Positions 20,136 through 39,294 of a DNA stretch of 48,081 nt are shown one piece after another. Where the stretch lies: positions 1-48,081 of the forward strand of contig CACONQ010000004.1 in NCBI GenBank assembly GCA_902628635.1. The letters run 5' to 3'. This DNA is from an uncultured Pelagibacteraceae bacterium (GTDB lineage: Bacteria > Pseudomonadota > Alphaproteobacteria > Pelagibacterales > Pelagibacteraceae). How positions within the stretch are numbered: position 1 is the stretch's first letter; each line of letters begins with the position of its first letter. The notes beneath the pieces were generated by a model. It saw only the letters and a list, made by a program, of their open reading frames with translations, had not been told where the DNA came from and did not search any database. A program made the position numbers and the translations under genes.

Positions 20136-21461
20136 TCAACAATCCAAAGTATTTCTTTTTTCCCACTCTGTAACTGGCTTTTTTTTATCAAATATCTCTT
20201 CTTTTCCAAAATTTATTATTTCTTGCTTTTTAAGCTTAATATAACTGTCTATTACATTATTTCCAAATGCTTCTCTAATTTCTTTACTATTATCTAATTC
20301 CTCAATTGAGTCTTCTATATCATCTGGTAATTTTTCTAAATTTGGATATTTATCAAAATCCTTATACATATTACACATAAGCGGCTCACCTGGATCTAGT
20401 TTTAAATTTAAACCATTTAATCCAGCGGCTATAATTCCTGCTTGCAATAAATATGGATTAGCAGATCCATCCATTAATCTTAATTCAAATCTTCCCTCAT
20501 CTGGAATTCTTATCATATGAGTTCTATTATTGCCGGTGTAAGAGATGCTTGATGGTGACCAAGTAGCACCTGATTTTGTTGGTGGAGCATTTATTCTTCT
20601 ATAACTATTTATAGATGGATTAAAAAAGGCTGATAAAGGTTTTGCACTTTTCATAATACCACCTAAAAAATTATACGCAGTTTTACTTAGACCAAGCCTA
20701 TCTCCTTTTTCTAAAAATTTATTTATATTACCATTCCACAATGATACGTGAGCGTGACAACCATTACCTGTTAAATCATTAAATGGTTTAGGCATAAAAG
20801 TTGCTCTTAAACCATGTTTTTCAGCAAGTGTTTTTACCATAAACTTAAAGAAGACATGTCTATCAGCAGTAATTAAAGAGTCTGAATAGTCCCAATTCAT
20901 TTCAAATTGACCGTTTGCATCTTCGTGATCATTTTGATAAGGACCCCAACCTAACTCAATCATGCTGTCACAAATATCTTTTATTAAGTCATATCTTCTC
21001 ATAAGTGCAGATTGATCGTAGCAAGGTTTAGATTGTATATCTCTTTTATCTGCTATATCTGAACCGTCCTGATTTATTAAAAAATACTCACACTCCACAC
21101 CTGATTTCATTTGAAAACCCTTTTTGGATAATCTATCGATTTGATTTTTAAGCATCACTCTTGGCGATGCAGCAACTTGTTTACCATTCATCCACAAATC
21201 AGATGCTAACCATCCTACCTCTTTGTTCCATGGCAACTGAATTAAACTATCTGGATCAGGTATGCCAAACATATCTGAGTCAGCGGGAGTCATATCTAAC
21301 CATGTTGCAAAACCAGCAAAACCAGCTCCATCTTTTTGCATACCTGAAATGGCCTCAGCAGGAACAAGCTTTGATCTGAGAACACCAAATAAATCTACAA
21401 AACTTATTAAAAAATATTTTATTTTTTTTGCTTTGGCAATTTTAGATAAGTTTTTTGACAT
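20136..21461 (-). CDS. gmaS: Glutamine-synthetase-like ligase, probable gamma-glutamylmethylamide synthetase (module 1)
   Basis: A 441-aa member of the glutamine synthetase superfamily, matching the GlnT/'type III' group that includes GmaS. The ATP/metal/glutamate-site motifs are intact: VECEYFL, HEDANGQFEMNW, the GNGCHAHVSLW loop (H236, H238) and RIPDEGRFELRLMDGSANPYL. The NLYDLP adenylylation site of GlnA is missing. With an N-methylglutamate-synthase-type gene set just upstream, the likely reaction is methylamine plus glutamate plus ATP giving gamma-glutamylmethylamide. A plain or specialised glutamine synthetase remains possible. It follows the FMN protein after 44 bases and abuts the lyase gene. 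Confidence 0.72.
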   Translation of the reverse strand: MSKNLSKIAKAKKIKYFLISFVDLFGVLRSKLVPAEAISGMQKDGAGFAGFATWLDMTPADSDMFGIPDPDSLIQLPWNKEVGWLASDLWMNGKQVAASPRVMLKNQIDRLSKKGFQMKSGVECEYFLINQDGSDIADKRDIQSKPCYDQSALMRRYDLIKDICDSMIELGWGPYQNDHEDANGQFEMNWDYSDSLITADRHVFFKFMVKTLAEKHGLRATFMPKPFNDLTGNGCHAHVSLWNGNINKFLEKGDRLGLSKTAYNFLGGIMKSAKPLSAFFNPSINSYRRINAPPTKSGATWSPSSISYTGNNRTHMIRIPDEGRFELRLMDGSANPYLLQAGIIAAGLNGLNLKLDPGEPLMCNMYKDFDKYPNLEKLPDDIEDSIEELDNSKEIREAFGNNVIDSYIKLKKQEIINFGKEEIFDKKKPVTEWEKRNTLDC

Positions 21462-21505
21462 ATCTTATTCTAGGTCTTTATATAAACTCTATCAATACCA
21501 AAATA

Positions 21506-22822
21506 CTATTTTTTTCCAGGTATCCAGTTTGTTCCAGCCAAAGGAACTCTTGCCATTGCCGCAGCTTCCACCGTTAAGGCACACAAATCCTCAGGTTCTA
21601 AATTGTGTAAATCATTTTTTCCACATGCCCGAGCTAGAGTTTGGGCTTCCAAAGTCATAACCTTAAGATAATTACAAAGTTTTTTACCTGCCAAGATTGG
21701 ATCTAATCTTTTCATTAACTCAGGGTCCTGAGTTGAAATTCCTGCAGGATCCATTCCCTCATGCCAATCATCATAAGCACCAGCTTTGGAACCTAACTTT
21801 TTATATTCATCGTCCCACTTAGGATCGTTATCACCAATTGCAATCATTGCTGCAGATCCAATTGACACCGCATCAGCTCCTAAGGCCATTGCTTTTGCAA
21901 CATCTGCACCATTTCTAATTCCTCCAGAAATTATTAGTTGTACTTTTCTATGCATATTTAAATCTTGTAATGCATCCACAGCAGGTCTAATACATCCTAA
22001 TGTAGGTTGTCCCACATTTTCAATAAAAACTTCTTGTGTTGCAGCAGTTCCACCTTGCATTCCATCAAGAACAACAACGTCAGCTCCTGCTTTTACCGCT
22101 AAAGCGGTATCATAATAAGGTCTTGAGCCAGCAATTTTAATAAATATTGGAACTTGCCAATTTGTTATTTCTCTTAATTCTAAAATTTTTATTTTTAAGT
22201 CATCTGGCCCTGTCCAATCAGGATGTCTACAAGCTGATCTCTGGTCAACACCTTTAGGGAGGGTTCTCATTTCTGCAACTCTATCATTTATTTTTTGTCC
22301 TAATAGCATTCCACCACCACCTGGTTTTGCACCTTGGCCAATAACAACTTCTATAGCATCTGCTTTTCTAAGATCGTTTGGGTTCATTCCATATCTAGAT
22401 GGGAGTAATTGATAGACTAGATTTTTAGATTGACCTCTTTCTTCTGGTGTCATCCCACCATCGCCAGTTGTTGTTGATGTTCCAGCCTGACTTGCACCTC
22501 TTCCTAAAGCCTCTTTTGCTGGTCCTGATAAAGCTCCAAAACTCATTCCAGCAATTGTAATTGGAATATCTAATTGCAAAGGTTTCTTTGCGTACCTTGT
22601 TCCTAAGGTAACTTTTGTATTACATGTTTCTCGATAACCTTCTAAAGGATATCTAGACATAGATGCACCTAAAAACAACAAATCGTCGAAGTGAGGTAAT
22701 CTTTTTTTGGAACCGCCGCCTCGTATATCATATATCCCAGTTTCTGCAGCTCTTCTAATTTCGGAGTTTGTATATTCATCAAATGTCCAAGATATTCTGG
22801 GTTTTGTTTTATTTTTTGTCAT
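21506..22822 (-). CDS. mgsC: FMN-binding glutamate-synthase-like protein, N-methylglutamate synthase subunit C type (module 1)
   Basis: A 438-aa protein equal to the central FMN/2-oxoglutarate domain of glutamate synthase large subunit. The TIM barrel shows GMSFGALSGPAKEALGRGA, QGAKPGGGGMLLGQKI, the DGMQGGTAATQEV loop and ISGGIRNGADVAKAMALGADAVSIG. At the place where glutamate synthase has its [3Fe-4S] cysteines, this protein reads AYDDWHEGMDPAGI (349-362) with no cysteine at all. It would combine an amine released by the amidotransferase subunit with 2-oxoglutarate, but how it receives reducing power is unclear. It starts two bases after the GXGXG gene stop. Confidence 0.77.
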   Translation of the reverse strand: MTKNKTKPRISWTFDEYTNSEIRRAAETGIYDIRGGGSKKRLPHFDDLLFLGASMSRYPLEGYRETCNTKVTLGTRYAKKPLQLDIPITIAGMSFGALSGPAKEALGRGASQAGTSTTTGDGGMTPEERGQSKNLVYQLLPSRYGMNPNDLRKADAIEVVIGQGAKPGGGGMLLGQKINDRVAEMRTLPKGVDQRSACRHPDWTGPDDLKIKILELREITNWQVPIFIKIAGSRPYYDTALAVKAGADVVVLDGMQGGTAATQEVFIENVGQPTLGCIRPAVDALQDLNMHRKVQLIISGGIRNGADVAKAMALGADAVSIGSAAMIAIGDNDPKWDDEYKKLGSKAGAYDDWHEGMDPAGISTQDPELMKRLDPILAGKKLCNYLKVMTLEAQTLARACGKNDLHNLEPEDLCALTVEAAAMARVPLAGTNWIPGKK

Positions 22823-22824
22823 TT

Positions 22825-23520
22825 TTAATAATTTGATAAGTTGTCTATTTTAAAATTGTATAATTTTCTTGCAGATCCATATCTTTTAAAATCTGAGGGT
22901 TTAAATTTTTTTATACCACTATTTTTTAATAAATTCTCTATTACCATTTCATGCTTTCTTTCTAATTTTTTCTCAATACAATCTGCACCAAGTGATTTGA
23001 CTTTACCCTTAACATAAATTTCAGTTTCATAAATACTATCGCCTAATGCTTCACCGGCATCACCACAAATTAGTATGTTTCCAGCTTGAGCCATAAAAGC
23101 GCACATATGCCCAACAGAACCTTTTACAACTATATCAACACCTTTCATTGATATTCCACATCTTGAACTTGCGTCACCATCTATTATTAACAATCCACCA
23201 TGGGCAGTTGCCCCCGCAGATTGGGAAGCATTACCTTTGACATGCACTTTTCCTGACATCATATTTTCCGCAACACCTGTTCCAACATTACCAGTAATCG
23301 TAACAAATGCATTTTGATTCATACCTGCACAAAAATATCCCGTATGACCTTTTATAGTAACATCTATTTCATCTTTTAAGCCAGCGCATATAGCATGATT
23401 TCCCTCTGGATTGATAACTGTAAAGCTTCTTTGATTTTGTTTTGATCCAATATTTTGAAGTTTTTGGTTAACTTCTCTAAGTTTTAATTTTTTTAAATCA
23501 AGGTTCATTAATTTCCCCAT
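22825..23520 (-). CDS. mgsB: GXGXG beta-helix subunit, N-methylglutamate synthase subunit B type (module 1)
   Basis: A 231-aa protein made of the GXGXG right-handed beta-helix that ends glutamate synthase large subunits. Repeats such as GHTGYFCAGMNQNAFVTI, GNVGTGVAENMMSGKVHV, GLLIIDGDASSRCGI and VGHMCAFMAQAGNILICG are visible. It is structural and links the amidotransferase and FMN subunits. The ATG at 23520 overlaps the upstream gene by 13 bases. An internal ATG at 23508, preceded by GGGGA at good spacing and forming TAATG with the upstream stop, is a real alternative that would shorten it by four residues. Confidence 0.8.
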   Translation of the reverse strand: MGKLMNLDLKKLKLREVNQKLQNIGSKQNQRSFTVINPEGNHAICAGLKDEIDVTIKGHTGYFCAGMNQNAFVTITGNVGTGVAENMMSGKVHVKGNASQSAGATAHGGLLIIDGDASSRCGISMKGVDIVVKGSVGHMCAFMAQAGNILICGDAGEALGDSIYETEIYVKGKVKSLGADCIEKKLERKHEMVIENLLKNSGIKKFKPSDFKRYGSARKLYNFKIDNLSNY

Positions 23521-24392
23521 GTGTAAACAATTCCAGGGTCAGGCTCAAATATCTTTGCATTATTTACATTTGGAAGATGTGCCATTGCTTGAAATTCCGA
23601 TGCAATAGCTACGTAATCATTTGTCTCCGCAATCACTGCTGGCTTACAGGCTATTTCATCTCTTACAATTGCAAAACCTTTTCTTGTTCCTGTTATAAAG
23701 GTATAGAATCCATCAAGATCTTTTAATCCAGATAAAAGTGTGTCCTTTAAAGTATTTTTATTTTTTAAACTATTAGAAATATATCCTGCAGCAACCTCTG
23801 TATCATTTTCCGAATTAAATTTAGATCCTTTTTTCCTCAATTCTCTTCTAAGATTATTATGATTAGACAGAGATCCATTATGAACTAAGCATTCATCTTC
23901 ACCAGTAGAATAAGGATGAGAACCATCTGTTGTGATAGCACTTTCGGTCGCCATTCTTGTATGTCCTATCCCATGTGAGCCTTCAAGTTTTTCTAAATTA
24001 AATTTTTTTACCACTTTTTCGGGGTTGCCAACTTGCTTAAAAATTTCTATAGATTTTCCATAACCTACCAAGGAAATATCTTTTAATTTCTCATTTATAA
24101 TTTTAAGTATTTTTTCAGGTTTTTCATTTGTTTTTATAATTACATGGTCTGAAATTTGTTCAATTTTTGCTTTCTTAATAACTTTAGTAAATTGTTTTTT
24201 AAAAGTTAAAAAATTGATTTTATTAAGGCATATTGAATATTTATATTTATATTTTTTCTCCTCTTTATAAATTGCGAAACCTGCGCTATCAGGACCTCTA
24301 GAGGACATATTTTTAAGCATTCCTGATAAAAATCTACCTAATGATTTCTCAAGCTTTTTATTTTTTAAATAGATTCCTACTATGCCACACAT
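23508..24392 (-). CDS. mgsA: Class II glutamine amidotransferase subunit, N-methylglutamate synthase subunit A type (module 1)
   Basis: A 294-aa Ntn-hydrolase of the GltB/PurF amidotransferase type. It starts MCGIVG, so Cys2 becomes the N-terminal nucleophile after Met removal. Further motifs are SRGPDSAGFAIY, the GIGHTRMATESAITTDGSHPY loop and VHNGSLSNHNNLRREL, then NDTEVAAGYI. It would hydrolyse a gamma-glutamyl amide and pass the amine to the FMN subunit. An insert at about residues 70-125, rich in Lys and Ile, separates the early motifs, as in the module 2 paralogue. It starts 11 bases after the 52-aa membrane-protein gene. Confidence 0.8.
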   Translation of the reverse strand: MCGIVGIYLKNKKLEKSLGRFLSGMLKNMSSRGPDSAGFAIYKEEKKYKYKYSICLNKINFLTFKKQFTKVIKKAKIEQISDHVIIKTNEKPEKILKIINEKLKDISLVGYGKSIEIFKQVGNPEKVVKKFNLEKLEGSHGIGHTRMATESAITTDGSHPYSTGEDECLVHNGSLSNHNNLRRELRKKGSKFNSENDTEVAAGYISNSLKNKNTLKDTLLSGLKDLDGFYTFITGTRKGFAIVRDEIACKPAVIAETNDYVAIASEFQAMAHLPNVNNAKIFEPDPGIVYTWGN

Positions 24393-24403
24393 AAATATTA
24401 AAT

Positions 24404-24562
24404 TTAAAGTAAAGATAATAAAAAATCTTTATAGTAAAGAAGGGTTACTAATACAATGATGATAATTGCGGCAATTGCTCCATACTTTGCTTTTGGCCAC
24501 GCTAGCCTTGCCATTTTGCTAGGCGTTTTATTTACTTGTTCTTGATTGTTATTTTCTTCCAT
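24404..24562 (-). CDS. Small single-span membrane protein (52 aa) between amt and mgsA
   Basis: The ATG at 24562 opens 52 codons ending in TAA at 24406-24404. The N-terminal half is polar (MEENNNQEQVNKTPSKMARL); the second half is one hydrophobic helix (about residues 28-44, GAIAAIIIIVLVTLLYY) with a short tail. It belongs to no family I know. It lies in the same direction as its neighbours, 11 bases before mgsA and 47 bases behind a 73-aa membrane-protein gene, with a strong hairpin in that gap. Position suggests an accessory to Amt or to the synthase complex. Confidence 0.6.
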   Translation of the reverse strand: MEENNNQEQVNKTPSKMARLAWPKAKYGAIAAIIIIVLVTLLYYKDFLLSLL

Positions 24563-24573
24563 TTAATTAAGAA

Positions 24574-24597
24574 GGGCGCATAAAAATTTATGCGCCC
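24574..24597 (-). terminator. Strong intercistronic hairpin between two small membrane-protein genes
   Basis: An 11-bp perfect inverted repeat (GGGCGCATAAA, 24574-24584, and TTTATGCGCCC, 24587-24597) with a two-base loop in the strictest reading. In the transcription direction it is followed only by TTCTTAATT, a weak T tract. It may be a leaky terminator or an mRNA-stabilising stem that keeps amt expression higher than that of the downstream mgs genes. Confidence 0.6.
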
Positions 24598-24609
24598 CAA
24601 TTAAATTAA

Positions 24610-24831
24610 TTACCCATCGGTAATATTACTTTTCCAATCGTTTGGACCACGTCTCTGCCTTGCAAGTTTTTGAAGTTTTTCACTTTCTTGCTTGGCAGTA
24701 ATAACATGCCAACCGATCCAAATGATAAATCCAAGGATTACTAAGATTCCTTCAGATCCAACACCTGGGTATACAGCACCTTGGACTTCAGAGGCGCTTA
24801 AATGATCTATCCAGTTTGTTACTGTTGCCAT
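24610..24831 (-). CDS. Small single-span membrane protein (73 aa) downstream of amt
   Basis: A 73-aa protein with one membrane helix (about residues 28-46, GILVILGFIIWIGWHVITA) and a charged C-terminal tail rich in Lys, Gln and Arg. It starts 12 bases after amt with an excellent ribosome-binding site (GGAGG overlapping the amt stop region), so it is certainly translated along with the transporter. I do not recognise a family. It occupies the place where a PII protein gene often accompanies amt. A role as an Amt-associated subunit or regulator is inference only. Confidence 0.75.
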   Translation of the reverse strand: MATVTNWIDHLSASEVQGAVYPGVGSEGILVILGFIIWIGWHVITAKQESEKLQKLARQRRGPNDWKSNITDG

Positions 24832-24843
24832 AAATTATCCTCC

Positions 24844-26244
24844 TTACCTGGTTGCAGAGGCCACGGATTTTTCGTCATCCTTTGCTGCCTCCATTATTTC
24901 ATAGTCTAGTCCAGCGATTTCAGCTTCTCTTGGAATTCTTAATTTACCCATTCCTTGAAGAACTTTCGCTATGACATATCCCGGAATCATTCCAAGAACA
25001 AAAAACATAATTATTGCTCCTATGAACATTCCTAAAGGATTTATAGATGCATAAGTAGCTCCGTCCCACATAGCTCCAACACTATAACCTGATGAAGGAT
25101 AACCATTTAGAACAAATCCACAAATTACTAGTCCTACGAAACCAGCATAACCATGCACTGCTACTGCACCAACTGCATCGTCGATTTTGAACTTACGTTC
25201 AACAAAGTAATGCAATTTATAAGCAATAACTACTCCGATCATACCAATTATCATTGATTGTATAGGGTGATACAAGTCATTACCTGCTGAAGCACATATG
25301 ATACCTGCTAGTCCAGAAGAATATGTCCAGAATGGATCTCCTTTAGAGATTACGTATCCAGCTAATAATCCTCCCGAAAGTGACATTAAGAAGTTAAAAG
25401 TAATACCACTCAATGTAGTAGGAGTTACATAAATGTTTGTTGCGGTAAAGTATGTGACACCTTCCATTCCATATTCAGGACCTAAGTTGAATATAGGTAT
25501 GTTACATGCAGCATAGAATCCCCAAAAGCCAGTGTAAATTAAAAACAATCCAATTACGACTAGCCAAGGATTTCTTGGTCCAATGTTTCTTGGCTCACCA
25601 CTTGATGTAAACTTACCTAATCTTGGACCTAAAACAACTAAAATACCAAGAGCAAATCCGCCAGCTATTGCGTGAATTACTCCTGACGCATAAGCGTCAT
25701 GATATCCTAAAAGTTTAAGCATCCACCCGTCAAAGTGCCATCCCCATGCAGCATCAATTACCCAAAACACAGAACCAATTGCTACTGCTAATATTCCAAA
25801 TGCAAAAGTTGTAATTCTCTCAATTACTGCACCTGAAACAATTGAAGCAGCTGTCCATGAAAATAATAAAAACGCTGCCCAGAAAACTCCGCTTATGTGA
25901 TCTCCAAGGTTTACTGCCATAAGTTGGCTTGTAGCCTTGTAATAAACAGAGCTAAATGCAGAGTCATCCATTATTAAAGCGTCGCTTCCGTTCATTATTG
26001 ATGGTGCAAGTCCTGGTCCCGTTGGAAAAGCCCAATATATCCACCATCCAAATAAAAACCACGTAACTGTTACCAGAGGTATAAGTATAGTGTTTTTCAT
26101 TAATGTATGTTGATGATGTTTGTATCGGGAAGCTCCAACTTCATACATACAGAAGCCCACGTGAATTAAAAACATGAGCACTACTGTTACCCAGTAGTAA
26201 AATTCTGTAAATATGGTCGTCAATGCACCTAGTTCATTAGTCAT
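24844..26244 (-). CDS. amt: Ammonium/methylammonium channel (Amt family)
   Basis: A 466-aa inner-membrane channel with about eleven hydrophobic helices. The conduction-pore residues are recognisable: an Asp-to-His pair in HDAYASGVIHAIAGG (D183, H191) and the second twin histidine in VAVHGYAGFVG (H364). The family element SIVSGAVIER is also present. Amt proteins carry ammonium and methylammonium. Here it is followed by two small membrane proteins and an N-methylglutamate-synthase-type operon, so methylamine uptake or recapture is a good candidate function. No glnK/glnB gene is adjacent. A GGAGG ribosome-binding site and a perfect palindrome lie just before the start. Confidence 0.93.
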   Translation of the reverse strand: MTNELGALTTIFTEFYYWVTVVLMFLIHVGFCMYEVGASRYKHHQHTLMKNTILIPLVTVTWFLFGWWIYWAFPTGPGLAPSIMNGSDALIMDDSAFSSVYYKATSQLMAVNLGDHISGVFWAAFLLFSWTAASIVSGAVIERITTFAFGILAVAIGSVFWVIDAAWGWHFDGWMLKLLGYHDAYASGVIHAIAGGFALGILVVLGPRLGKFTSSGEPRNIGPRNPWLVVIGLFLIYTGFWGFYAACNIPIFNLGPEYGMEGVTYFTATNIYVTPTTLSGITFNFLMSLSGGLLAGYVISKGDPFWTYSSGLAGIICASAGNDLYHPIQSMIIGMIGVVIAYKLHYFVERKFKIDDAVGAVAVHGYAGFVGLVICGFVLNGYPSSGYSVGAMWDGATYASINPLGMFIGAIIMFFVLGMIPGYVIAKVLQGMGKLRIPREAEIAGLDYEIMEAAKDDEKSVASATR

Positions 26245-26255
26245 ATCAAACCTCC

Positions 26256-26306
26256 ATTTGTTTAAACAAATTACTTTTATTTTAAATAATGAGAAAATTA
26301 GTACAA
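26256..26306 (-). promoter_or_regulatory. amt promoter with a perfect 16-bp palindrome at the transcript start
   Basis: Reading the - strand, TTGTAC (26306-26301), a 16-base spacer and TAAAAT (26284-26279) form a promoter-like pair. The predicted start, near 26272, sits at the edge of the perfect palindrome ATTTGTTTAAACAAAT (26271-26256), which itself abuts the GGAGG ribosome-binding site (26255-26251). The palindrome could be an operator or an mRNA structure next to the ribosome site. Confidence 0.5.
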
Positions 26307-26343
26307 CGTTAAAAAACCTATTCTGAGCGTAAAAATTTAATTT

Positions 26344-26371
26344 AAAAACAACCTAGGGTAGATTGTTTTTT
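26344..26371 (-). terminator. Intrinsic terminator ending module 2
   Basis: On the - strand AAAAACAATCTA pairs with TAGGTTGTTTTT around a CCC loop (11 Watson-Crick pairs plus one G-T), and the T-rich side doubles as the T tract. It lies 10 bases beyond the stop of the 136-aa gene and upstream of the amt promoter. It therefore separates the two module transcripts. Confidence 0.7.
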
Positions 26372-26380
26372 CAGAGATTC

Positions 26381-26791
26381 TTAAAATTTTCTATATGCTT
26401 TTTTAAGATCAACTAACGGATGATTTGGTGACATTTGGAATTTTACTAACAGTTCCCGAGCAATCATATCTCTATCTTGTTGGTTATTTGGGAGTTTAAT
26501 TTTTTTTGGAATTGTAACCCAGCCATTAGCATTTCTATCAAATACCGCAGGTCTATCTTCCTCGTAACCCATATGAACATCCTCAAGCCAATTTAAATCA
26601 TCCCATCCCATTGCCTCAATATATTTTTTAAGAAATGGAGTTAATCGTGAATAGTCAGGCAACAAATTTACATCGTATCTATAACCGATTGTTTGACCAA
26701 TCATTTTTTCTCTGGCAGTCGCCTTTTTTTTTCCAAGCTGACCCTTTACTTCTTTTGGGGTTGTTTTTTTATTTTTCTTTTTTCGTGCCAT
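26381..26791 (-). CDS. Uncharacterised 136-aa protein, last gene of module 2
   Basis: I do not recognise the family. The first 30 residues are Lys-rich (MARKKKNKKTTPKEVKGQLG and onward). Then comes a compact region with YDVNLLPDYSRLTPFLKKY, several Trp and Asp residues (MGWDDLNWLEDVHMG) and a C-terminal helix. There is no signal peptide or membrane helix, so it is probably cytosolic. It starts five bases after the FMN-protein gene and is followed by a terminator. Module 1 has no counterpart. A small extra subunit or assembly factor for the module 2 enzyme is the simplest reading, but nothing in the sequence proves it. Confidence 0.7.
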   Translation of the reverse strand: MARKKKNKKTTPKEVKGQLGKKKATAREKMIGQTIGYRYDVNLLPDYSRLTPFLKKYIEAMGWDDLNWLEDVHMGYEEDRPAVFDRNANGWVTIPKKIKLPNNQQDRDMIARELLVKFQMSPNHPLVDLKKAYRKF

Positions 26792-26796
26792 AAAAA

Positions 26797-28203
26797 TTAG
26801 ATTTTATGAAAGTCGTCTACCCCAACAGTATGATTTGTCCCTGATAAAGGAACTTTAGCTAAAGCAGATGCTTCCATTGTTAATGCAGCCATATCCTCTG
26901 GTTCAAGAGAGTGTATATTTGTTTTACCACATGCTCTTGCAAGAAGTTGAGCTTCAAGCGTCATTGCATGTAAATAATTGTAAACTCTTAGCGCGGCTTC
27001 GTCAGGATTTAATCTTTTTCTAAGTTTTGGATCTTGCGTAGCAACTCCTACAGGGCAACGACCTGTATGACAATGATAACAGTGTCCAGCAGGCACTCCC
27101 ATTTCTTTCTCAAAATTTGACTCAGGTATTTCTTTATTACAATTTAAAGCAACCATTGCTCCAGTACCAATTGCTATAGCGTCGGCTCCTAAAGCAAGTG
27201 CTTTAGCCATATCCGCACCATCTCTTACACCACCAGCATAAATTAAAGTTACTTTTCCTGTCTTACCTACATCGTCTATTGCTCTTCTTGCTTCTCTAAT
27301 AGCAGCAATTCCAGGAATTCCTGTGTTTGCAGCAGCTATGTGAGGTCCAGCTCCTGTTGATCCTTCCATACCATCTAAATAGATAGAATCTGGATCACAT
27401 TTTGCTGCCATCCTAACATCATCATATACTTTTGCTGCTCCTAATTTTAATTGAATTGGAACTTTATTTTTTGTTAATTCTCTTAGCTCTTGAACTTTTA
27501 ATGCTAAATCATCTGGACCTAGCCAGTCGGGATGTCTTGCAGGAGATCTTTGATCTATTCCCGCAGGTAAAGATCTCATTTCAGCTACTTGATCTGTAAC
27601 TTTCTGACCCATTAAGTGTCCTCCCATTCCCACTTTCTGACCTTGTCCTATAAATACCTCTATACCATCAGCAAGTTGTGCATGATGTGGATTAAATCCA
27701 TATCTTGATTGTATGCACTGATAATACCACTTCTCAGAATATCTTCTTTCATCGGGTATCATTCCACCTTCACCTGAACAAGTTGCACTCCCTGCCATAG
27801 TGGCACCTCTTGCCAAAGCGGTTTTAGCTTCATATGAAAGTGCGCCAAAACTCATGCCTGTAATGTATACAGGAATATCTAGTTCTATAGGGTTCTCACA
27901 TCTTGGACCTATTACAGTTTTTGTCTCACATTTTTCTCTATAACCTTCAATTACGAACCTTGTTAAAGTTCCAGGTAAAAATACAAGATCGTCAAAAGTA
28001 GGAATTTTTTTCATCAAAGCCATTCCACGCATTCTGTATCTTCCTAATTGTGCTTTAATATGAATATCGTCGATTACTTCTGGAGTAAAAATAGAGTTAT
28101 AACCTAATAAACTCTTATTTCTTTTTGAAAATTCTGTTTTACCGTTTCCGTTGCCATTTCCGTTTGAATGACCGTTTGATTTACCATTTTTTTTTCTTGC
28201 CAT
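26797..28203 (-). CDS. FMN glutamate-synthase-like protein with [3Fe-4S] cysteines (module 2)
   Basis: A 468-aa homologue of the glutamate-synthase FMN domain, paralogous to the module 1 protein. The barrel has GMSFGALSYEAKTALARGA, QGQKVGMGGHLMGQKV, DGMEGSTGAGPHIAA and YAGGVRDGADMAKALALGADAIAIG. Unlike module 1 it keeps the cluster motif CYHCHTGRCPVGVATQ (C375, C378, C383), so it should bind a [3Fe-4S] cluster and accept electrons from a reductase or ferredoxin. The N-terminus has a Lys/Asn/Gly-rich tail with alternating Asn-Gly (residues 8-22). It shares one base with the GXGXG gene (TAATG). The gene type has been called glxD in other bacteria; the amine it uses is unknown. Confidence 0.82.
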   Translation of the reverse strand: MARKKNGKSNGHSNGNGNGNGKTEFSKRNKSLLGYNSIFTPEVIDDIHIKAQLGRYRMRGMALMKKIPTFDDLVFLPGTLTRFVIEGYREKCETKTVIGPRCENPIELDIPVYITGMSFGALSYEAKTALARGATMAGSATCSGEGGMIPDERRYSEKWYYQCIQSRYGFNPHHAQLADGIEVFIGQGQKVGMGGHLMGQKVTDQVAEMRSLPAGIDQRSPARHPDWLGPDDLALKVQELRELTKNKVPIQLKLGAAKVYDDVRMAAKCDPDSIYLDGMEGSTGAGPHIAAANTGIPGIAAIREARRAIDDVGKTGKVTLIYAGGVRDGADMAKALALGADAIAIGTGAMVALNCNKEIPESNFEKEMGVPAGHCYHCHTGRCPVGVATQDPKLRKRLNPDEAALRVYNYLHAMTLEAQLLARACGKTNIHSLEPEDMAALTMEASALAKVPLSGTNHTVGVDDFHKI

Positions 28204-29057
28204 TATATAGCTCCTTTTTTTTCTGTAGGTTCTAAAGCGTCATAGTTCCAAAGTTTCTTACCTGCAACTACTTTCGTCATTTTAGAGACGTCAAAATTGT
28301 CGCCTATTTCAGCTACTTTAAGCTTTCTTTTTAACCAATCTATATCACTTTTTGTCATAGGGGACTCCACAGCATCACTTCCAAAAGATCCAATTTTCCC
28401 TCCAATAAAAATTGTGCCGTCATACATTGAATCACCTAAGTTTATTCCAACATCTCCCAAAATAATTATTCTTCCTCTTTGCATCATAAAACCAGTAAAA
28501 GCACCAGCGTCCCCACCTATAATAATAGTACCACCTTTTTGGTCAATACCAGTCCTGGCTCCTACGCTACCTTTGCAGATCAAATCTCCACCTCTTATGG
28601 CGGCTCCAAAACATGATCCTGCATTTTTTTCAATCACCACTTTACCAGCCATCATGTTTTCAGCACATGACCAACCAACTCTACCATTTATTCTAACAAT
28701 AGGCCCATCAATTGAACCAACACCAAAATAACCTAAACTTCCCTCAAATATTAAATTTAGTTTATTAAGAATTCCTACTCCAAGACTATGTTTACCCTGT
28801 GGATTTTTTATAACTATCGTACCGTAACCTTGACTCATTAATTCATCAATTTTCCTATTAGCTTCTTTACAATCTAAATTTTGAACATCTAAATCTGTTC
28901 TCTTGTTAAAATCAACGTCATAAGTTCCCCAATAAAAAAAATTTTCTGCCTCATCAGGATTAAAAAATTTCTGCTGAGTTTTACCTGTTAGAACTTCCGT
29001 ATGAAGCCCCATTGATTGTGCTTTTGTTTTTTTATCTGATGTTTTTAAATTTGCCAT
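28203..29057 (-). CDS. GXGXG beta-helix subunit (module 2)
   Basis: A 284-aa GXGXG-repeat protein, the partner of the amidotransferase and FMN subunits. Repeats include GSLGYFGVGSIDGPIVRING, GRVGWSCAENMMAGKVVI, GVGINLGDSMYDGTIFIGG-type turns and GGTIIIGGDAGAFTGFMMQR. It carries an N-terminal extension of about 60 residues compared with the module 1 paralogue, including FNPDEAENFFYWGTYDVDF, which may make an extra contact. It overlaps the amidotransferase gene by 13 bases, exactly as in module 1, and the FMN gene by one base. Its role is structural within a three-part synthase. Confidence 0.8.
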   Translation of the reverse strand: MANLKTSDKKTKAQSMGLHTEVLTGKTQQKFFNPDEAENFFYWGTYDVDFNKRTDLDVQNLDCKEANRKIDELMSQGYGTIVIKNPQGKHSLGVGILNKLNLIFEGSLGYFGVGSIDGPIVRINGRVGWSCAENMMAGKVVIEKNAGSCFGAAIRGGDLICKGSVGARTGIDQKGGTIIIGGDAGAFTGFMMQRGRIIILGDVGINLGDSMYDGTIFIGGKIGSFGSDAVESPMTKSDIDWLKRKLKVAEIGDNFDVSKMTKVVAGKKLWNYDALEPTEKKGAI

Positions 29058-29986
29058 ACTTTTACCATTCCATCAAAAGGATCATACGTGTCAATTTCTT
29101 GTGGAAGAACTGACCTTATAGCTATTTCCTCTGAACCCATTGCAACTAAATCGTCTGACTCGTAAAGCACTAAAGGTTTAGCAGCCATCGTGTCTTTAGC
29201 CATACCTAGAGAATCCTTTGTTGCAACAAAATAAGTAAACACACCGTCTAAACCCGTTAAAGACTCTTTCATTCCCTCTTCTAAAGAAGCGCCACTTCTC
29301 ATTTTTTCTGCAAGATATACAGCTATTAACTCTGAGTCACATTCAGACATAAACCGCATACCCTTATTTTCTAACATTCTACGATTATTCCAATAATTTG
29401 TAAGTTGTCCGTTATGTACTACAGATACATCGCTAAATGGATAACCCCAAAACGGGTGTGCTGACTTAATATCAACTCCCGACTCCGTAGCCATTCTCGC
29501 ATGTCCAATAGCATGAGTTCCAATAAGTTTATCTAAATTATATCTTTCGCAAACAGCTTTTGCGTTACCAAGATCTTTAATTACCTCTAAAGATTTTCCC
29601 ATTGATAAAATTTCAACACCAGGAACACTTTCAATTTTTTTTGAAAATTCCATTAAATCATTATTATACTCAATTTCGTATCTAAGTGAGTAGGGAAGTA
29701 TTCTCTCTTCTTTTACTATTTTTGCACCTAATTCGCTTAAAAAAATATCAACTTGTCTTTTTCTAGAATCATAAACAGAAATATCTTCTTTTACAGAAGA
29801 ACTTCCCTCTGCTACGTTTTCTCCAACTTTAAAACGCATAATAAAATTTTTTCCATCAGTGTCTCCATATAATGCGTATCCTGTTGAATCCTCACCTCTG
29901 TGCTTTAATGCCTGAAGCATTCCTTGTAATTCTTGACCAACATTTGAAGATTTACCTCTATGAATTAAGCCTGCAATACCGCACAT
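29045..29986 (-). CDS. Class II glutamine amidotransferase subunit (module 2)
   Basis: A 313-aa Ntn-type amidotransferase starting MCGIAG (Cys2 nucleophile). It shows KHRGEDSTGYALYG, the AIGHARMATESGVDIKSAHPF loop, VHNGQLTNYWNNRRML and CDSELIAVYLA. It should release ammonia or an amine from a gamma-glutamyl amide for the FMN subunit. As in module 1, a stretch of about 60 residues (about 65-130) interrupts the usual fold between motifs. It starts 20 bases after the GS-2 gene, so here the ligase comes first in the operon, whereas in module 1 it comes last. Confidence 0.82.
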   Translation of the reverse strand: MCGIAGLIHRGKSSNVGQELQGMLQALKHRGEDSTGYALYGDTDGKNFIMRFKVGENVAEGSSSVKEDISVYDSRKRQVDIFLSELGAKIVKEERILPYSLRYEIEYNNDLMEFSKKIESVPGVEILSMGKSLEVIKDLGNAKAVCERYNLDKLIGTHAIGHARMATESGVDIKSAHPFWGYPFSDVSVVHNGQLTNYWNNRRMLENKGMRFMSECDSELIAVYLAEKMRSGASLEEGMKESLTGLDGVFTYFVATKDSLGMAKDTMAAKPLVLYESDDLVAMGSEEIAIRSVLPQEIDTYDPFDGMVKVWQI

Positions 29987-30006
29987 ATTTTTTTCCTATA
30001 TAATTA

Positions 30007-31476
30007 TTACGGCAGACAATCAAGGTAAGTATCAAGATCCCATTGAGTTGTAGCACCCAAAAATCTTTCCCACTCATCATTTTTATACCAATGAAATACT
30101 TTATACATCTCATCTGGCATTGCTGATTTAATTACCTCATCCTCTGCTAATCTATCTAAAGCCTCTCCTAAACTTAAAGGAAGTTTCTTAACATCTTTTC
30201 CAGCTTTTTGAGCTTCATAAATATTTCTAGACTCTGGTGCTGCTGGCTTCATTTTTTTTGAAATTCCCTCATCACAAGCTTTAAGTAAAGCTGCGCCAAG
30301 CAGATATGGATTGTGCATTGAGTCAACAGATCTATACTCAAATCTTCCTGGAGCTGAAACTCTTAAGCCACAAGTTCTATTTTGATAACCCCAATCTGCA
30401 TATACAGGAGCCCAGAAACCCTGATCCCAAAGTCTTCGATAAGAGTTTACAGTTGAAGACCCAAGCGCAGTTAACGCTGGCAAGTGTTCCATAATTCCCG
30501 CAATAGAATGTAACCCAATTTTCCCAGGTAATTGCATATCTTTTGTATCTGGCATGAAAGTATTGGTACCGCCTGAAACGTAACTGAACACTTCTTCAAC
30601 GCCTGGCAGTTTTTTGTGACCTAATTTATTAACTGATATTTTTCCACCTTTCCAGAGAGACATATTAGTATGACACCCGCTAGCAGAAACACCCATAAAA
30701 GGTTTTGTCATAAAACATGCAATCAAACCATGTTCTCTTGCTACTTGTGCACAAATTTGTCTGTAAGTTGATAACCTATCAGCATTTCTTAATACATTAT
30801 CGAAAGTCCAATTTAATTCTAATTGACCAGGGGCATCTTCGTGGTCGCCTTGAATCATGTCTAGTCCCATTGCTTGAGAATACTCAATGACTTTCATAAA
30901 TACTGGTCTTAATGACTCAAATTGGTCTATGTGATAGCAAAAAGGTTTAGAGAAACCCTTTCCTGTTGGAGTGCCATCCTCATTTTTAGTAAGCCACATC
31001 ATCTCCGGCTCTGTTCCAACTCTTAATTCTAGACCATGTTTTTTTTGAAATTCGTCCATAAAAATTCTTAAGTTTCCTCTGCAATCTGATGTTAAATGAC
31101 CACCTGGATTGTTTCTTTCTTCTCTATTTCTAAAACATGTGCAGAATACTCTTCCAACTCTTTTATCCCAAGGTAATTGAACAAATGTTTCTGGATCAGG
31201 TATACCAACAAGTTCCATTGCCTCTGGTCCATAACCAATATAATTATTATGTCTGTCTAAAAATAAATTTGCTGTTGATCCATAAACTAATTGAAAACCT
31301 TTTTCAGCAGTTCTTTCCCAGTGATCTGCGGGTATTCCTTTTCCTACAACTCTTCCAGTAACAGAAATAAATTGAAAATATATATAAGTTATTCCTAACT
31401 CGTTGATTTTTTCTCTAACTTTTTTGACCAGTTTATCTCTACCTGGTTGATTAACGTGTTTTTCTAGATCAGTCAT
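30007..31476 (-). CDS. Divergent glutamine-synthetase-like ligase GS-2 (module 2)
   Basis: A 489-aa glutamine-synthetase-superfamily ligase, clearly distinct from GS-1 and about 50 residues longer. Kept motifs are VGTEPEMMWL, HEDAPGQLELNW, a glutamate/ATP loop and APGRFEYRSVDSMHNPYLLGAALL. In the GxGxHxH-type loop it reads SASGCHTNMSLW: the first His is present (H269) but the second is Asn (N271). There is no NLYDLP adenylylation site. It would glutamylate an amine; methylamine, dimethylamine or ammonia are all possible. It has a strong GGGGG ribosome-binding site. The 66-base gap from the FAD gene carries a T9 run on the coding strand but no hairpin. Confidence 0.75.
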   Translation of the reverse strand: MTDLEKHVNQPGRDKLVKKVREKINELGITYIYFQFISVTGRVVGKGIPADHWERTAEKGFQLVYGSTANLFLDRHNNYIGYGPEAMELVGIPDPETFVQLPWDKRVGRVFCTCFRNREERNNPGGHLTSDCRGNLRIFMDEFQKKHGLELRVGTEPEMMWLTKNEDGTPTGKGFSKPFCYHIDQFESLRPVFMKVIEYSQAMGLDMIQGDHEDAPGQLELNWTFDNVLRNADRLSTYRQICAQVAREHGLIACFMTKPFMGVSASGCHTNMSLWKGGKISVNKLGHKKLPGVEEVFSYVSGGTNTFMPDTKDMQLPGKIGLHSIAGIMEHLPALTALGSSTVNSYRRLWDQGFWAPVYADWGYQNRTCGLRVSAPGRFEYRSVDSMHNPYLLGAALLKACDEGISKKMKPAAPESRNIYEAQKAGKDVKKLPLSLGEALDRLAEDEVIKSAMPDEMYKVFHWYKNDEWERFLGATTQWDLDTYLDCLP

Positions 31477-31542: not shown

Positions 31543-32868
31543 TTAACTCCAAGGAAACGGACTGTTCGAAGTAGGGTGTAGTTCCCCTTTCGCGTATCGG
31601 TTGAATCTAAACGGTTTTAACAATGTACTCTCTTGACCTAAAATTTCTTGTGCAACAAGGTGACCAACTCCCAACATTTTATATCCATGATTAGCATCAG
31701 CTATCATGTAAACGTTTTCTAAAAATCTATCAAAGATTGGAAATGAATCTGGAGTTAAACATCCAAGTCCACCAGATGGTCCCTTTCTATATAAATTTGA
31801 TTTACCTTCAAATCTTTTTTGGCAATGAGCTAGTGCTGAGGACCACATATCTGCAAACTCATCAGTTGTTTGATACTCTGGTGAGTCCAATCCATAAGGA
31901 TCGACATTAACTTTATCAAAATGTTTTTGAACAATGTAAGGCGAAGTTCCACCTTGAACACCTAAACCTTCAATATCAGGTTTATAATATATTCCCCATA
32001 ATTTATCTGTAATTAGTTTTTGATCTTTATCTGAGTAAAGAGGCGCATCTGTATCGACATGAATTACTGGAGGCTGTTTACCCTCATTTGTTCTGAGATA
32101 ATCCGCATCAACCCCAAGAACACCTTCTTGTAAAAACCAATAAGTCCACATATCAACTTGGTGCATTTTACCATCCTTACCTTTTATGTCAGTTGTTTTT
32201 GGTAATTCCAACATATTCCAGAAATCTCTTACCCATGGTCCAGCACCAACAACTACTTGGTCACAATCTATTGTTCCTTGATCTGTGATAACTCCTGTAA
32301 CAGCATTACTATTGCTACCTTTTTTGAAACCTGTAACTTTTACGCCTTTATGAACATTAACTCCATTAGCGTTAGCTTTTTTTTCTAATGCTTTTATTGA
32401 ATCTTTGTTAAAAGCATATCCACCCTTTTTCTCATGAAGAACAGATGTAATTCCTTTTGCCTGCCAGTCGTCAAAAATTCCTTTCATATATTTATCACAA
32501 TCTTTTTCTCCTTCGATAAATTCTGAATCATATCCAATTGCTTTTTGTTGATTGTAAATACTAGCTACGTCTTCATGCATTACTTCTGGTGAAATTTGCA
32601 TATATCCAACTGCATTATATTTAAATGCTTTTGGATCGCTCTCCCAAACCTCAACTGAGTGAGCCATTAATTCTCTCATTGCTGGCTGAAAATAATTATT
32701 TCTTACAACACCACATGCTATTCCACTTGCACCTGCTGCAGTGTCTTTTTTTTCTAATACTACAATGTCATTTGGATTTTTATAGGTCTCTGATAATTTC
32801 CATGCAGTACTTAACCCGTGGATGCCACCACCGATTACAACTACTTTTGCTTTTGTTGGTAAAGCCAT
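31543..32868 (-). CDS. FAD-dependent oxidoreductase of the DAO / sarcosine-dimethylglycine dehydrogenase family
   Basis: A 441-aa flavoprotein with VVVIGGGIHGLSTAWKL at the N-terminus (Rossmann GxGxxG), AAGASGIACGVVRNNYF as the typical second motif, VVGAGPWVRDF in the middle and a C-terminal NHGYKMLGVGHLVAQEI that closes the FAD site. Family members oxidise N-methyl groups or amine carbons of amino acids. It lacks the GcvT-type folate domain of dimethylglycine dehydrogenases, but tdm upstream carries one. It lies between tdm and GS-2, so an N-methylated amino acid such as an N-methylglutamate derivative is a plausible substrate. The sarcosine-oxidase-type multi-subunit dehydrogenase partners are absent. 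A 24-bp palindrome lies 36 bases upstream of its start. Confidence 0.8.
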   Translation of the reverse strand: MALPTKAKVVVIGGGIHGLSTAWKLSETYKNPNDIVVLEKKDTAAGASGIACGVVRNNYFQPAMRELMAHSVEVWESDPKAFKYNAVGYMQISPEVMHEDVASIYNQQKAIGYDSEFIEGEKDCDKYMKGIFDDWQAKGITSVLHEKKGGYAFNKDSIKALEKKANANGVNVHKGVKVTGFKKGSNSNAVTGVITDQGTIDCDQVVVGAGPWVRDFWNMLELPKTTDIKGKDGKMHQVDMWTYWFLQEGVLGVDADYLRTNEGKQPPVIHVDTDAPLYSDKDQKLITDKLWGIYYKPDIEGLGVQGGTSPYIVQKHFDKVNVDPYGLDSPEYQTTDEFADMWSSALAHCQKRFEGKSNLYRKGPSGGLGCLTPDSFPIFDRFLENVYMIADANHGYKMLGVGHLVAQEILGQESTLLKPFRFNRYAKGELHPTSNSPFPWS

Positions 32869-32965: not shown

Positions 32966-33316
32966 TTAAAAACTTAAATTTTTCAAAGTTGCTAAATAAT
33001 CATTAAATTCATTGATAAATGCTTGGCTCGGTTTAATGAATTTTTTTCTTTGATCTTTCAAATTTTTTTCTAAATAAAAAAAACCTTTCTCACAAGCTTC
33101 ATTAATTATCAATGCTGATTTTGGTCTAGAAGTTTTAAAAAGTTTAGTTTTTAACTCTTCGACTGACAAATTTTGCTTTAATTTATAAGCGGTCATTACT
33201 AAAAGCATCATATGGTAATGAGAAGGGGATTTTCTGAAAAAATAATTACTAGATTTATGAGATAATTTCATTTGATCCTCCCAAAACTCCAACAAGTCTT
33301 TTGTAGCTTTGTTCAT
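32966..33316 (-). CDS. Small winged-helix transcriptional regulator, MarR-like
   Basis: A 116-aa protein with a winged-helix layout. Helices at about 29-65 lead into a recognition-helix-like region (TSRPKSALIINEACEKGFFY). A wing follows with the MarR signature Asp-x-Arg in LKDQRKKFIKPSQAFINEF. It is short for MarR and lacks a long N-terminal dimer helix, so a PadR- or phage-type winged helix is possible. It is cotranslated with tdm (TAATG, one-base overlap). It is therefore the best candidate for the local regulator of the TMAO genes, possibly acting on the inverted repeat in the tdm/tmoX promoter region. Confidence 0.65.
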   Translation of the reverse strand: MNKATKDLLEFWEDQMKLSHKSSNYFFRKSPSHYHMMLLVMTAYKLKQNLSVEELKTKLFKTSRPKSALIINEACEKGFFYLEKNLKDQRKKFIKPSQAFINEFNDYLATLKNLSF

Positions 33317-35756: not shown

Positions 35757-36704
35757 ATGAGAAGAATAATATCATTATTATCTGCAGTTATTATTTCAGT
35801 AGTAAGTTTTGCTGGAATATCAAACGCAGCAGATAGCAAAAAGCCCATCGTAATCCCAACTCATAACTGGTCAAGCCAAATTGTAATGGCTTACGTTATT
35901 GGTGGAATTATGGAAAGTATGGGAAACAATGTTAAATATGTTAATGCTGACTCTCAAGCAGTTTACGAGTCAATTAGAATTGGTGACGTAACTTTATCTC
36001 ACGAAGTATGGGAATCTGCTTTTGGTAAATCATTCACAACTGCTTTGGACAAAGGCGGATTGCTTGACTGGGGTGACCATGAAGCAAGAACACTTGAAGA
36101 TATGGGATATCCAAACTGGGTTGCTGAAAAAGGATTATGCCCAGGTCTACCAGATTGGACTGCTTTAAAAAATCCTGACTGTGCTAAAAACTTTACAACA
36201 CCTGACTCTCCGGATGGAAAAGGAAGAATGTTGGAAGGTCCACAAACTTGGCATGGTGATTTAATTCCACAAAGGGTTGACGCTTTAGGTTTAGGAGATC
36301 TTTGGTGGGTTAAATTTGCTGGAAGTGCTGATGCACTTTGGGCAGAGTTAGCAGCAGCTGAAAAAGAAGGAAGAGGAACAATCATCTTTAACTGGACACC
36401 TAACTTTACAGATGGTGCTGGTTTTACATTTATCGACTTTCCTCCATACACAGCAGGTTGCAGACCTGAAGATGGTGGAGATGGAAAATGTGGTTCGCCT
36501 GATGGTTATTTGAAAAAAGCAGTTAACGCTGATTTTCCAAAAACTCATCCAAAAGCAGCAGCAATGTTTAAAAAACTTTCTTTCACAACAAGTCAAATTG
36601 GTGCAATGGCAGCTTTAGTTGACGTTGACAAAATGACTCACGAAGATGCTGCAAAAGCATGGTTAAAAAAGAACGAGAAAGTTTGGAAAGCTTTTACTAA
36701 ATAA
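35757..36704 (+). CDS. tmoX: TMAO (or betaine-type) ABC transporter substrate-binding protein
   Basis: A 315-aa periplasmic binding protein of the OpuAC family, with a signal peptide ending ISNAA near residue 24. The mature part has the family's aromatic-rich ligand box: THNWSSQIVMAYVIGG, EVWES, GPQTWHGDLIPQRVD and FNWTPNF. Such Trp/Tyr cages bind quaternary ammonium groups or TMAO. Divergent tdm and nearby tmm make TMAO the likely ligand; glycine betaine or choline are the alternatives. It has its own promoter and a strong terminator. The matching ATPase and permease follow only after three small genes. Confidence 0.82.
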   Translation: MRRIISLLSAVIISVVSFAGISNAADSKKPIVIPTHNWSSQIVMAYVIGGIMESMGNNVKYVNADSQAVYESIRIGDVTLSHEVWESAFGKSFTTALDKGGLLDWGDHEARTLEDMGYPNWVAEKGLCPGLPDWTALKNPDCAKNFTTPDSPDGKGRMLEGPQTWHGDLIPQRVDALGLGDLWWVKFAGSADALWAELAAAEKEGRGTIIFNWTPNFTDGAGFTFIDFPPYTAGCRPEDGGDGKCGSPDGYLKKAVNADFPKTHPKAAAMFKKLSFTTSQIGAMAALVDVDKMTHEDAAKAWLKKNEKVWKAFTK

Positions 36705-36726
36705 GGTTAAGAGCTATTAAATCTTT

Positions 36727-36763
36727 AAATCTCTCCCAACAATGTTGGGGGAGATTTTTTTTT
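36727..36763 (+). terminator. Intrinsic terminator after tmoX
   Basis: A 14-bp stem (36727-36740 with 36744-36757, one G-T pair), containing CTCTCCCAAC and GTTGGGGGAG around a three-base AAT loop, runs into an unbroken run of T to 36763. It isolates tmoX from the downstream genes, mirroring the terminator behind the PotD-like gene. Confidence 0.92.
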
Positions 36764-36773
36764 AAAATAAAAC

Positions 36774-37235: not shown

Positions 37236-37269
37236 TTTTTTTTTAGTAAATTTTGTGTAAAATATTGTT

Positions 37270-38198: not shown

Positions 38199-38263
38199 GG
38201 AGGAAAAACATTAATATTATGGATTTTATTTTATCTTAATTTCATATAACTTAATAAAAATTT

Positions 38264-39292: not shown

Positions 39293-39294
39293 TT

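Follow-up and report, generated by a model that had tools for sequence, protein, structure and literature searches.

The stretch of DNA examined here (the window; 48,081 nucleotides, contig CACONQ010000004.1 of assembly GCA_902628635.1) is part of a SAR11-like draft genome, labelled G000 in our samples (its contig C4), and holds two gene modules, each encoding a glutamine-synthetase-like ligase and a glutamate-synthase-like enzyme of three subunits, around one Amt channel gene. Judged by its sequence, module 1 is the canonical GmaS-MgsABC set of the known monomethylamine (MMA) route. Module 2, whose ligase we call GS2, together with an adjoining DAO-family flavoprotein (hereafter DAO) would form a monooxygenase-free route for dimethylamine (DMA) that replaces DmmDABC in SAR11 and many other bacteria. 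This reading draws on which genes are present, how they are conserved and distributed, their phylogeny, and the residues that they keep, and we give it a probability of about 0.63. We conclude that the two modules are real, that they are of old origin and not equivalent, that DMA is the better-supported amine for module 2, and that the missing DMA step has a strong candidate in module 2.

SAR11 bacteria are the most abundant heterotrophs in the ocean, and the DMA step is the one step of trimethylamine N-oxide (TMAO) use that the group was held to lack. One paper reports that no SAR11 representative has dmmDABC, regards the gap as a metabolic bottleneck, and links the missing genes to DMA build-up and marine aerosols (PMC5520151). 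In another, TMAO as the only source of nitrogen sustained growth of strain HTCC1062, whose gene content includes tmoXWV-tdm-gmaS, and an isoenzyme for DMA was suggested (PMC8918994). Further papers take SAR11_1313-1315 and 1316 to be the methylamine genes and call SAR11_1304 a monomeric sarcosine oxidase (PMC3160333), name SAR11_1305 'glnT' in a study of sulfur limitation (PMC5069961), and list SAR11_1309-1310 as hypothetical-amt (PMC2704228). By synteny, SAR11_1304, 1305, 1309, and 1310 are probably the counterparts of the window's genes for DAO, GS2, a 136-amino-acid (aa) protein, and Amt. A literature search over partial texts, with most subscription journals outside it, returned no proposal of a DMA role for SAR11_1304-1310; in the same kind of source, literature on gamma-glutamyl-dimethylamide or dimethylglutamate, judged by title, covered unrelated subjects only.

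In the proposed route, Tdm, a member of a known family, turns TMAO into DMA and formaldehyde, and GS2 would use ATP to couple DMA to glutamate, giving gamma-glutamyl-dimethylamide. By analogy with MgsABC chemistry, the complex of amidotransferase, GXGXG, and flavin mononucleotide (FMN) subunits would release DMA internally and condense it with 2-oxoglutarate to an iminium, which would be reduced to N,N-dimethylglutamate while glutamate is regenerated. DAO may then remove one methyl group as formaldehyde or methylene-tetrahydrofolate to leave N-methylglutamate, the least certain of the steps, and a putative heterotetrameric N-methylglutamate dehydrogenase (NMGDH), again of a known family, would free the second methyl group and glutamate. 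TMAO nitrogen would thus reach glutamate without free MMA. Module 2 is proposed for the same step downstream of Tdm as DmmDABC, with different protein families. We put at slightly better than even the odds that stepwise demethylation on the glutamate nitrogen takes place in SAR11 and several other phyla, and that SAR11 has no "DMA bottleneck" and acts as a DMA sink. If this is true, DMA gains a large unrecognized biological sink and GS2 becomes a marker gene for metagenomes. The candidate genes named here for the SAR11 DMA step are ready for cloning and testing, and new labels suggest themselves for genes now annotated in many genomes as glutamine synthetase (GS), glutamate synthase, or sarcosine oxidase.

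The two modules and their ligases

All open reading frames (ORFs) of both modules lie on the minus strand, in the transcription order module 2 ligase, amidotransferase, GXGXG subunit, FMN subunit, 136-aa protein, Amt, and then module 1 amidotransferase, GXGXG subunit, FMN subunit, and ligase. The original prediction, made from this DNA, had two ligase-plus-synthase modules flanking Amt, and both positions and domains bear this out (Gln-synt_C, GATase_6/7, GXGXG, Glu_synthase, and Ammonium_transp across the modules and Amt). The paired protein lengths that it gave (441/489, 294/313, 231/284, and 438/468 aa) agree with the ORFs, and the ligase is indeed the last gene of module 1 (21461-20136) and the first of module 2 (31476-30007). 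Beyond what that prediction listed, the 136-aa protein and the flavin adenine dinucleotide protein DAO (32868-31543) accompany module 2 from locus to locus, and tdm, tmoXWV-like genes, and tmm adjoin both modules.

The two copies are 27% (ligase), 32% (amidotransferase), 35% (GXGXG), and 50% (FMN subunit) identical by BLASTP and therefore do not stem from a recent duplication. In the ligase tree, a GmaS-type clade (9 rows, support 99/95) and a GS2-type clade (20 rows including plasmid and paired-GS relatives, 100/99) are separate. The FMN subunit tree has a module 1 clade of 11 rows (100/100) that holds Paracoccus aminophilus MgsC and Rhizobium etli GlxD and excludes the module 2 rows, which group with weak support (89/61) and with a long Priestia row inside. 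This tree is disturbed by two very long outgroup rows, GltB and Priestia, which we rejected for rooting as too long-branched. Neither tree groups the copies as recent duplicates. Hence, the view that they are old paralogues stands, and a recent tandem duplication is rejected.

The module 1 ligase scores above the cut-off of TIGR03105 (610.1 versus 469.6 bits), a model named type III glutamate-ammonia ligase; its identity as GmaS rests on its nearest PDB match, the Rhodovulum enzyme (RhGmaS, 7cql; 567 bits). At 23 of 23 compared catalytic, ATP, glutamate, and amine-site positions, listed in the accessible part of PMC7948447, the residues are those of RhGmaS, and the ligase falls in the GmaS clade with the P. 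aminophilus and R. etli proteins. The order mgsABC-gmaS matches R. etli glxBCD-glnT and the cluster on the P. aminophilus plasmid pAMI6, on which methylamine oxidation via N-methylglutamate was placed in the text available to us (PMC4543880). Module 1 is thus a member of the GmaS-MgsABC(-MgdABCD) pathway of R. pomeroyi, P. aminophilus, and Methyloversatilis (glnT-glxBCD in rhizobia), which has the same four protein types; GmaS would make gamma-glutamylmethylamide and MgsABC would convert it to N-methylglutamate.

As a general statement, the picture of two parallel complete modules did not hold. By gene coordinates, 21 of 32 SAR11 genomes have a gap of about 5.6 kb between GS2 and gmaS, against 8.5 kb in the long form. 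The module 1 mgsABC was not found between Amt and gmaS in the four short-gap loci read (L085, L086, L185, and L191); for the other short-gap loci its loss is taken from the distance, and the rest of those genomes was not searched. From one SAR11 genome to another, the set between Amt and gmaS seems to be either replaced or missing. The window's mgsC shares 80% identity with rhizobial GlxD and just 75% with the copy of SAR11 genome G011. In the alignment, the motif CxxCHxGxC is missing from the window's module 1 FMN subunit, R. etli GlxD, and P. aminophilus MgsC and is kept in the module 1 copies of G011 (L084), L051, and L059; one subclade of MgsC has apparently lost an Fe-S site.

GS2 scores below the TIGR03105 cut-off (298.8 versus 469.6 bits), has general glutamine synthetases as its best PDB matches, and lies outside the GmaS clade. 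It keeps the GmaS amine-site set Lys30', Tyr147, Gln175, Asp177, Glu179, Glu186, and Asn188 and, like RhGmaS with its Trp300, carries Trp where GS has the flap Glu. This alkylamine-site signature argues that GS2 works like GmaS, not that it belongs to GmaS, and its residues Asp177, Asn188, and Trp300 recur in 11 of 11 GS2 rows of at least 70% identity, two of them cyanobacterial. The part of the RhGmaS study open to us assigns residues to the MMA site and proposes that Asp177 deprotonates the amine (PMC7948447). At the sites of the GlnA signature (flap Glu, Asp50', and His at the Asp177 position), two GlnA controls carry Glu, Asp, and His, and the window's GS2 has Trp, Val, and Asp. On these sites, we rejected module 2 as an ammonia-assimilating GS/glutamate synthase pair.

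Gene order, flavoprotein and relatives of module 2

We compared gene order in 30 loci from Alphaproteobacteria, including SAR11, and in 70 non-cyanobacterial named loci (the named loci being the best 80 of 570 relatives), counting for each gene only loci long enough to show it. The amidotransferase gene directly follows GS2 in 29/30 alphaproteobacterial and 62/65 named loci, GXGXG is third in 30/30 and 57/59, the FMN subunit fourth in 27/27 and 48/51, and the 136-aa protein fifth in 24/24 and 46/49. The named loci include records from Gammaproteobacteria, Gemmatimonadota, and Latescibacterota, one deltaproteobacterial and one acidobacterial. The cassette is thus a unit of GS2, amidotransferase, GXGXG, FMN subunit, and 136-aa protein, often with DAO first, and keeps this order in several phyla. 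Recurring neighbors are a GntR-type regulator, Amt, Tdm, Tmm, and sarcosine-oxidase/NMGDH-type genes, the last found in the GS2 stretch of 9 of the 70 non-cyanobacterial named loci.

Module 2 differs from the GmaS-MgsABC systems in its separate ligase clade, in FMN subunits outside the MgsC/GlxD clade, in being ligase-first, in the extra 136-aa protein and frequent DAO, and in following tdm rather than gmaS. All of its FMN rows aligned contain CxxCHxGxC. The 136-aa protein has no Pfam or NCBIfam match, and its AlphaFold model (pLDDT 75) has no PDB fold match at E <= 0.001.

The structural model of DAO (pLDDT 86) comes closest to the sarcosine oxidase beta subunit 3ada_B (TM-score 0.72/0.79, 19% identity), and the predicted fold is one common to heterotetrameric sarcosine oxidase beta, monomeric sarcosine oxidase, and dimethylglycine dehydrogenase. 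The sarcosine oxidase beta subunit family demethylates N-methyl amino acids. DAO differs from the sarcosine oxidases in this low identity, in scoring far below their cut-offs (41.9 of 479.65 bits for TIGR01377, 80.2 of 529.45 for TIGR01373), and in accompanying a ligase and a synthase. In four SAR11 genomes (G018, G049, G075, and G093), DAO has SoxB/SoxA-type genes as direct neighbors or at a distance of up to about 0.6 kb, and the SoxB proteins of G049 and G093 share 62-63% identity with their counterparts in the glx/mgs regions of pAMI6 and R. etli.

Other relatives occur in other surroundings. Ten cyanobacterial loci (L107, L116, L127, L128, L132, L134, L137, L141, L146, and L153) have a GS2 of 70-73% identity, beside which synthase genes were not found within the stretch covered; in L128, GS2 adjoins a Tmm homologue (62%). 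Two further types of synthase set, in L101, L125, and L147 and in L148 and L164, have FMN subunits 39-40% and 56-58% identical to that of module 2, the second type beside SoxB/SoxA-type genes. A GS2-like ligase of 52-63% identity occurs in L054, L068, L070, L076, L077, and L078 and on plasmids L017 and L018, mostly with a second, divergent GS and beside polyamine-type ABC or P450 genes. Of the two GS proteins in the paired-GS plasmid clusters of Paracoccus sp. TOH and Ruegeria sp. SCSIO 43209, one shares 53-54% identity with GS2 and the other has unlike amine-site residues; no class II amidotransferase, GXGXG, or FMN synthase genes were found in these clusters. We rejected these plasmid relatives (53%) as members of module 2, as their gene partners differ.

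Occurrence with tdm and DmmA, and competing readings

Among 97 genomes of the SAR11 order, full-length tdm is present in 35 and GS2 in 35 (two as contig-end fragments), and 34 of the 36 genomes with either gene have both. The first exception (G030) has GS2 without tdm on a contig that ends 1.4 kb beyond GS2, inside DAO; in the second (G018), tdm and DAO are present and GS2 was not found, and its genus-mates G049 and G075 have GS2 as contig-end pieces only. By comparison, gmaS is present in 73 of the 97, of which 39 are without full-length tdm, versus one for GS2. PF11927 (DmmA) was found in none of the 97 genomes, G000 included; DmmB, C, and D were not searched. As module 2 follows tdm and gmaS does not, we infer that the modules have different substrates, and to this extent the suggestion of different substrates in the original prediction is supported.

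In a class-wide sample of 385 Alphaproteobacteria genomes (cut-offs E <= 1e-100 for tdm and E <= 1e-90 for GS2), tdm occurs in 34, GS2 in 39, and PF11927 in 49 (46 strong matches and three at 51-59 bits). The association between GS2 and tdm is strong (p = 6e-24). Of the 34 tdm-positive genomes, 26 have GS2 only, five strong DmmA only, none both, and three neither (Fisher p = 2e-4). A phylum-wide sample of 369 genomes (GS2 cut-off E <= 1e-60) gave 25 with tdm, 19 of them new, and all 19 have PF11927 and none GS2; this is a weaker test, since 12 of the 19 are from one family and only two are non-alphaproteobacterial. Pooling the wider samples, 26 of 53 tdm-positive genomes have GS2, 24 strong DmmA, none both, and three neither; by family, the counts are 12 with GS2, nine with DmmA, two with neither, and none strongly with both. 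PF11927 was found in one of 31 GS2-positive genomes picked from the 80 named loci. The tdm gene lies within 25 kb of GS2 in 15/26 genomes and within 25 kb of DmmA in 16/24.

Several results weigh against the DMA route. DAO is directly upstream of GS2 in just 20/30 alphaproteobacterial and 35/61 named loci, and in SAR11 genome G074, DAO and module 1 are present but GS2 and tdm were not found. In the 385 genomes, PF11927 by itself shows no association with tdm (p = 0.58) and 13 of the 39 GS2-positive genomes are without tdm (11 of the 13 are of the cassette type by identity); two of the 26 genomes with GS2 and tdm (G126 and G430) carry a weak PF11927 match of 51-59 bits, and the GS2-positive cyanobacterium G827 carries a strong one. 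On a 61-row Tdm tree, the GS2/DmmA state needs about three changes, so that a consistent pattern has few events behind it, and an independent-pairs test has too few pairs for significance. At the compared sites, differences between GS2 and GmaS are limited to Ala48', Tyr174, Tyr191 (in some rows), Gly231, and His237; with these sites almost the same, the sequence does not itself explain a preference for DMA, and an attempt to tell MMA from DMA by pocket residues had no outcome. In favor of the route, a secondary amine is chemically possible, as RhGmaS accepts DMA weakly, with a Km of 16 mM versus 27 uM for MMA (PMC7948447). Finally, 21 of the 32 SAR11 loci are too short for the module 1 mgsABC, so the module 2 synthase may also serve GmaS and process gamma-glutamylmethylamide.

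The GS2-positive genomes without tdm speak for an unlikely alternative, in which the substrate of module 2 is some other environmental amine (ethylamine, ethanolamine, or a further N-methylated amine, for instance) and the link to tdm reflects only a shared methylated-amine lifestyle. The relatives of 52-63% identity, mostly found with a second GS and polyamine-type ABC genes, fit this alternative, as does an OYE-type neighbor in L080 that is nearest to histamine dehydrogenase (747 bits, versus 530 for trimethylamine dehydrogenase) and that we do not claim as a trimethylamine dehydrogenase. In four cassettes without tdm (L055, L069, L072, and L073), no DMA-producing enzyme was recognized among the neighbors. 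Against another amine stands the alternation of GS2 and DmmA among tdm-positive genomes, which points to DMA, as do two loci of one alphaproteobacterial genus, L056 (G177) and L081 (G460), both from genomes without tdm at E <= 1e-100. There the cassette adjoins a gene of 786 or 711 aa, respectively, that resembles the large subunit of dimethylformamidase (DMFase; PF20254), an enzyme that releases DMA. The L056 copy scores 626 bits with DMFase 6lvb and 445 with a related acylase. A 140-aa gene follows the DMFase-like gene; it has no PDB match, and we therefore do not claim it as the small subunit. A PF20254 gene also lies within 2 kb of the cassette in L096, from a gammaproteobacterial metagenome-assembled genome.

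It is distinctly improbable that module 2 is a second MMA system that differs from module 1 in affinity or regulation only. The near identity of the amine-site residues with those of GmaS would suit such a role, and so would the many SAR11 loci, the majority, that pair GmaS with the module 2 synthase only. GmaS of more than 39% identity was not found in five of 18 GS2- and tdm-positive genomes (81-95% complete, including all three of one genus), which a second MMA system could explain and which is also expected if free MMA is bypassed, as in the DMA route. On the other side, 38 SAR11 genomes have GmaS and neither full-length tdm nor GS2, every GS2-positive SAR11 genome in the sample already has GmaS, and an MMA isoenzyme is not expected to alternate with DmmA.

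The few changes on the Tdm tree, and the one family that supplies 12 of the 19 added genomes, would be accounted for if lineages had simply inherited either cluster, with no functional equivalence between GS2 and DmmA. We consider this very unlikely, since nearly every tdm-positive genome has one or the other and GS2, which 39 of the 385 genomes carry, is present in 26 of the 34 with tdm. The exceptions on the tree are G428 and G439, which are placed together with G118 outside the remaining Tdm rows, and the draft assemblies G353 and G018, which are nested inside GS2-positive genera. There is only the slightest chance that module 2 handles DMA in another order, with DAO demethylating gamma-glutamyl-dimethylamide to gamma-glutamylmethylamide for the usual MgsABC route: loci that pair two ligases with a single synthase would fit, but the FMN subunit accompanies GS2 downstream in nearly all non-cyanobacterial loci, and the known DAO-family demethylases oxidize basic amino-acid amines and are not known to act on amides.

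Gene table and minor observations

Table 1. Genes of the two modules and their surroundings in the window
Gene or product	Position	Strand	Basis
gmaS, gamma-glutamylmethylamide synthetase, module 1 ligase, 441 aa	20136..21461	-	TIGR03105, RhGmaS 7cql, clade, residues
mgsC/glxD, FMN subunit of N-methylglutamate synthase, module 1	21506..22822	-	Glu_synthase; 80% to R. etli GlxD; without Cys motif
mgsB/glxC, GXGXG subunit, module 1	22825..23520	-	PF01493
mgsA/glxB, class II amidotransferase, module 1	23508..24392	-	PF13522/PF13537
Amt-family channel	24844..26244	-	PF00909
136-aa protein, no family match, last gene of module 2	26381..26791	-	
FMN subunit of module 2 synthase, CxxCHxGxC (GltB-like Fe-S) motif	26797..28203	-	Glu_synthase
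GXGXG subunit, module 2	28203..29057	-	PF01493; conserved order
Class II amidotransferase subunit, module 2	29045..29986	-	PF13522/PF13537; conserved order
GS2, glutamine-synthetase-like ligase of module 2, proposed gamma-glutamyl-dimethylamide synthetase	30007..31476	-	PF00120
DAO-family flavoprotein, proposed N,N-dimethylglutamate demethylase	31543..32868	-	PF01266
116-aa protein between DAO and tdm, no Pfam match; in several SAR11 loci	32966..33316	-	
tdm, trimethylamine N-oxide demethylase (makes DMA)	33316..35643	-	NF053776; DUF1989 + GCV_T
tmoXWV-like TMAO ABC transporter genes	35757-36704, 38264-39292, 39295-41448 (35757..41448)	+	OpuAC domain on TmoX-like protein
tmm, trimethylamine monooxygenase	41453..42784	-	NF058570 745 bits, cut-off 675

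Tdm scores 1146.1 bits with NF053776, above the cut-off of 1100, and the Amt protein is under the cut-offs of TIGR00836 (178 of 343 bits) and TIGR03644 (130 of 514). Apart from the TmoX-like gene, the tmoXWV-like genes are presumed to be such from position. An Rfam scan of the window gave no family at the gathering threshold, and two sub-threshold matches were taken as chance. The gap between Amt and mgsA measures 451 bases (24393-24843), and the 136-base gap ahead of Amt (26245-26380) has a short stretch rich in T that resembles a hairpin. Where the trimethylamine/TMAO cluster ends (45068-48025), three genes follow an Fe-ADH gene; we take them to be GATase class I-like (45068), glutamate-cysteine-ligase-like (45858), and glutathione-synthetase-like (47096).

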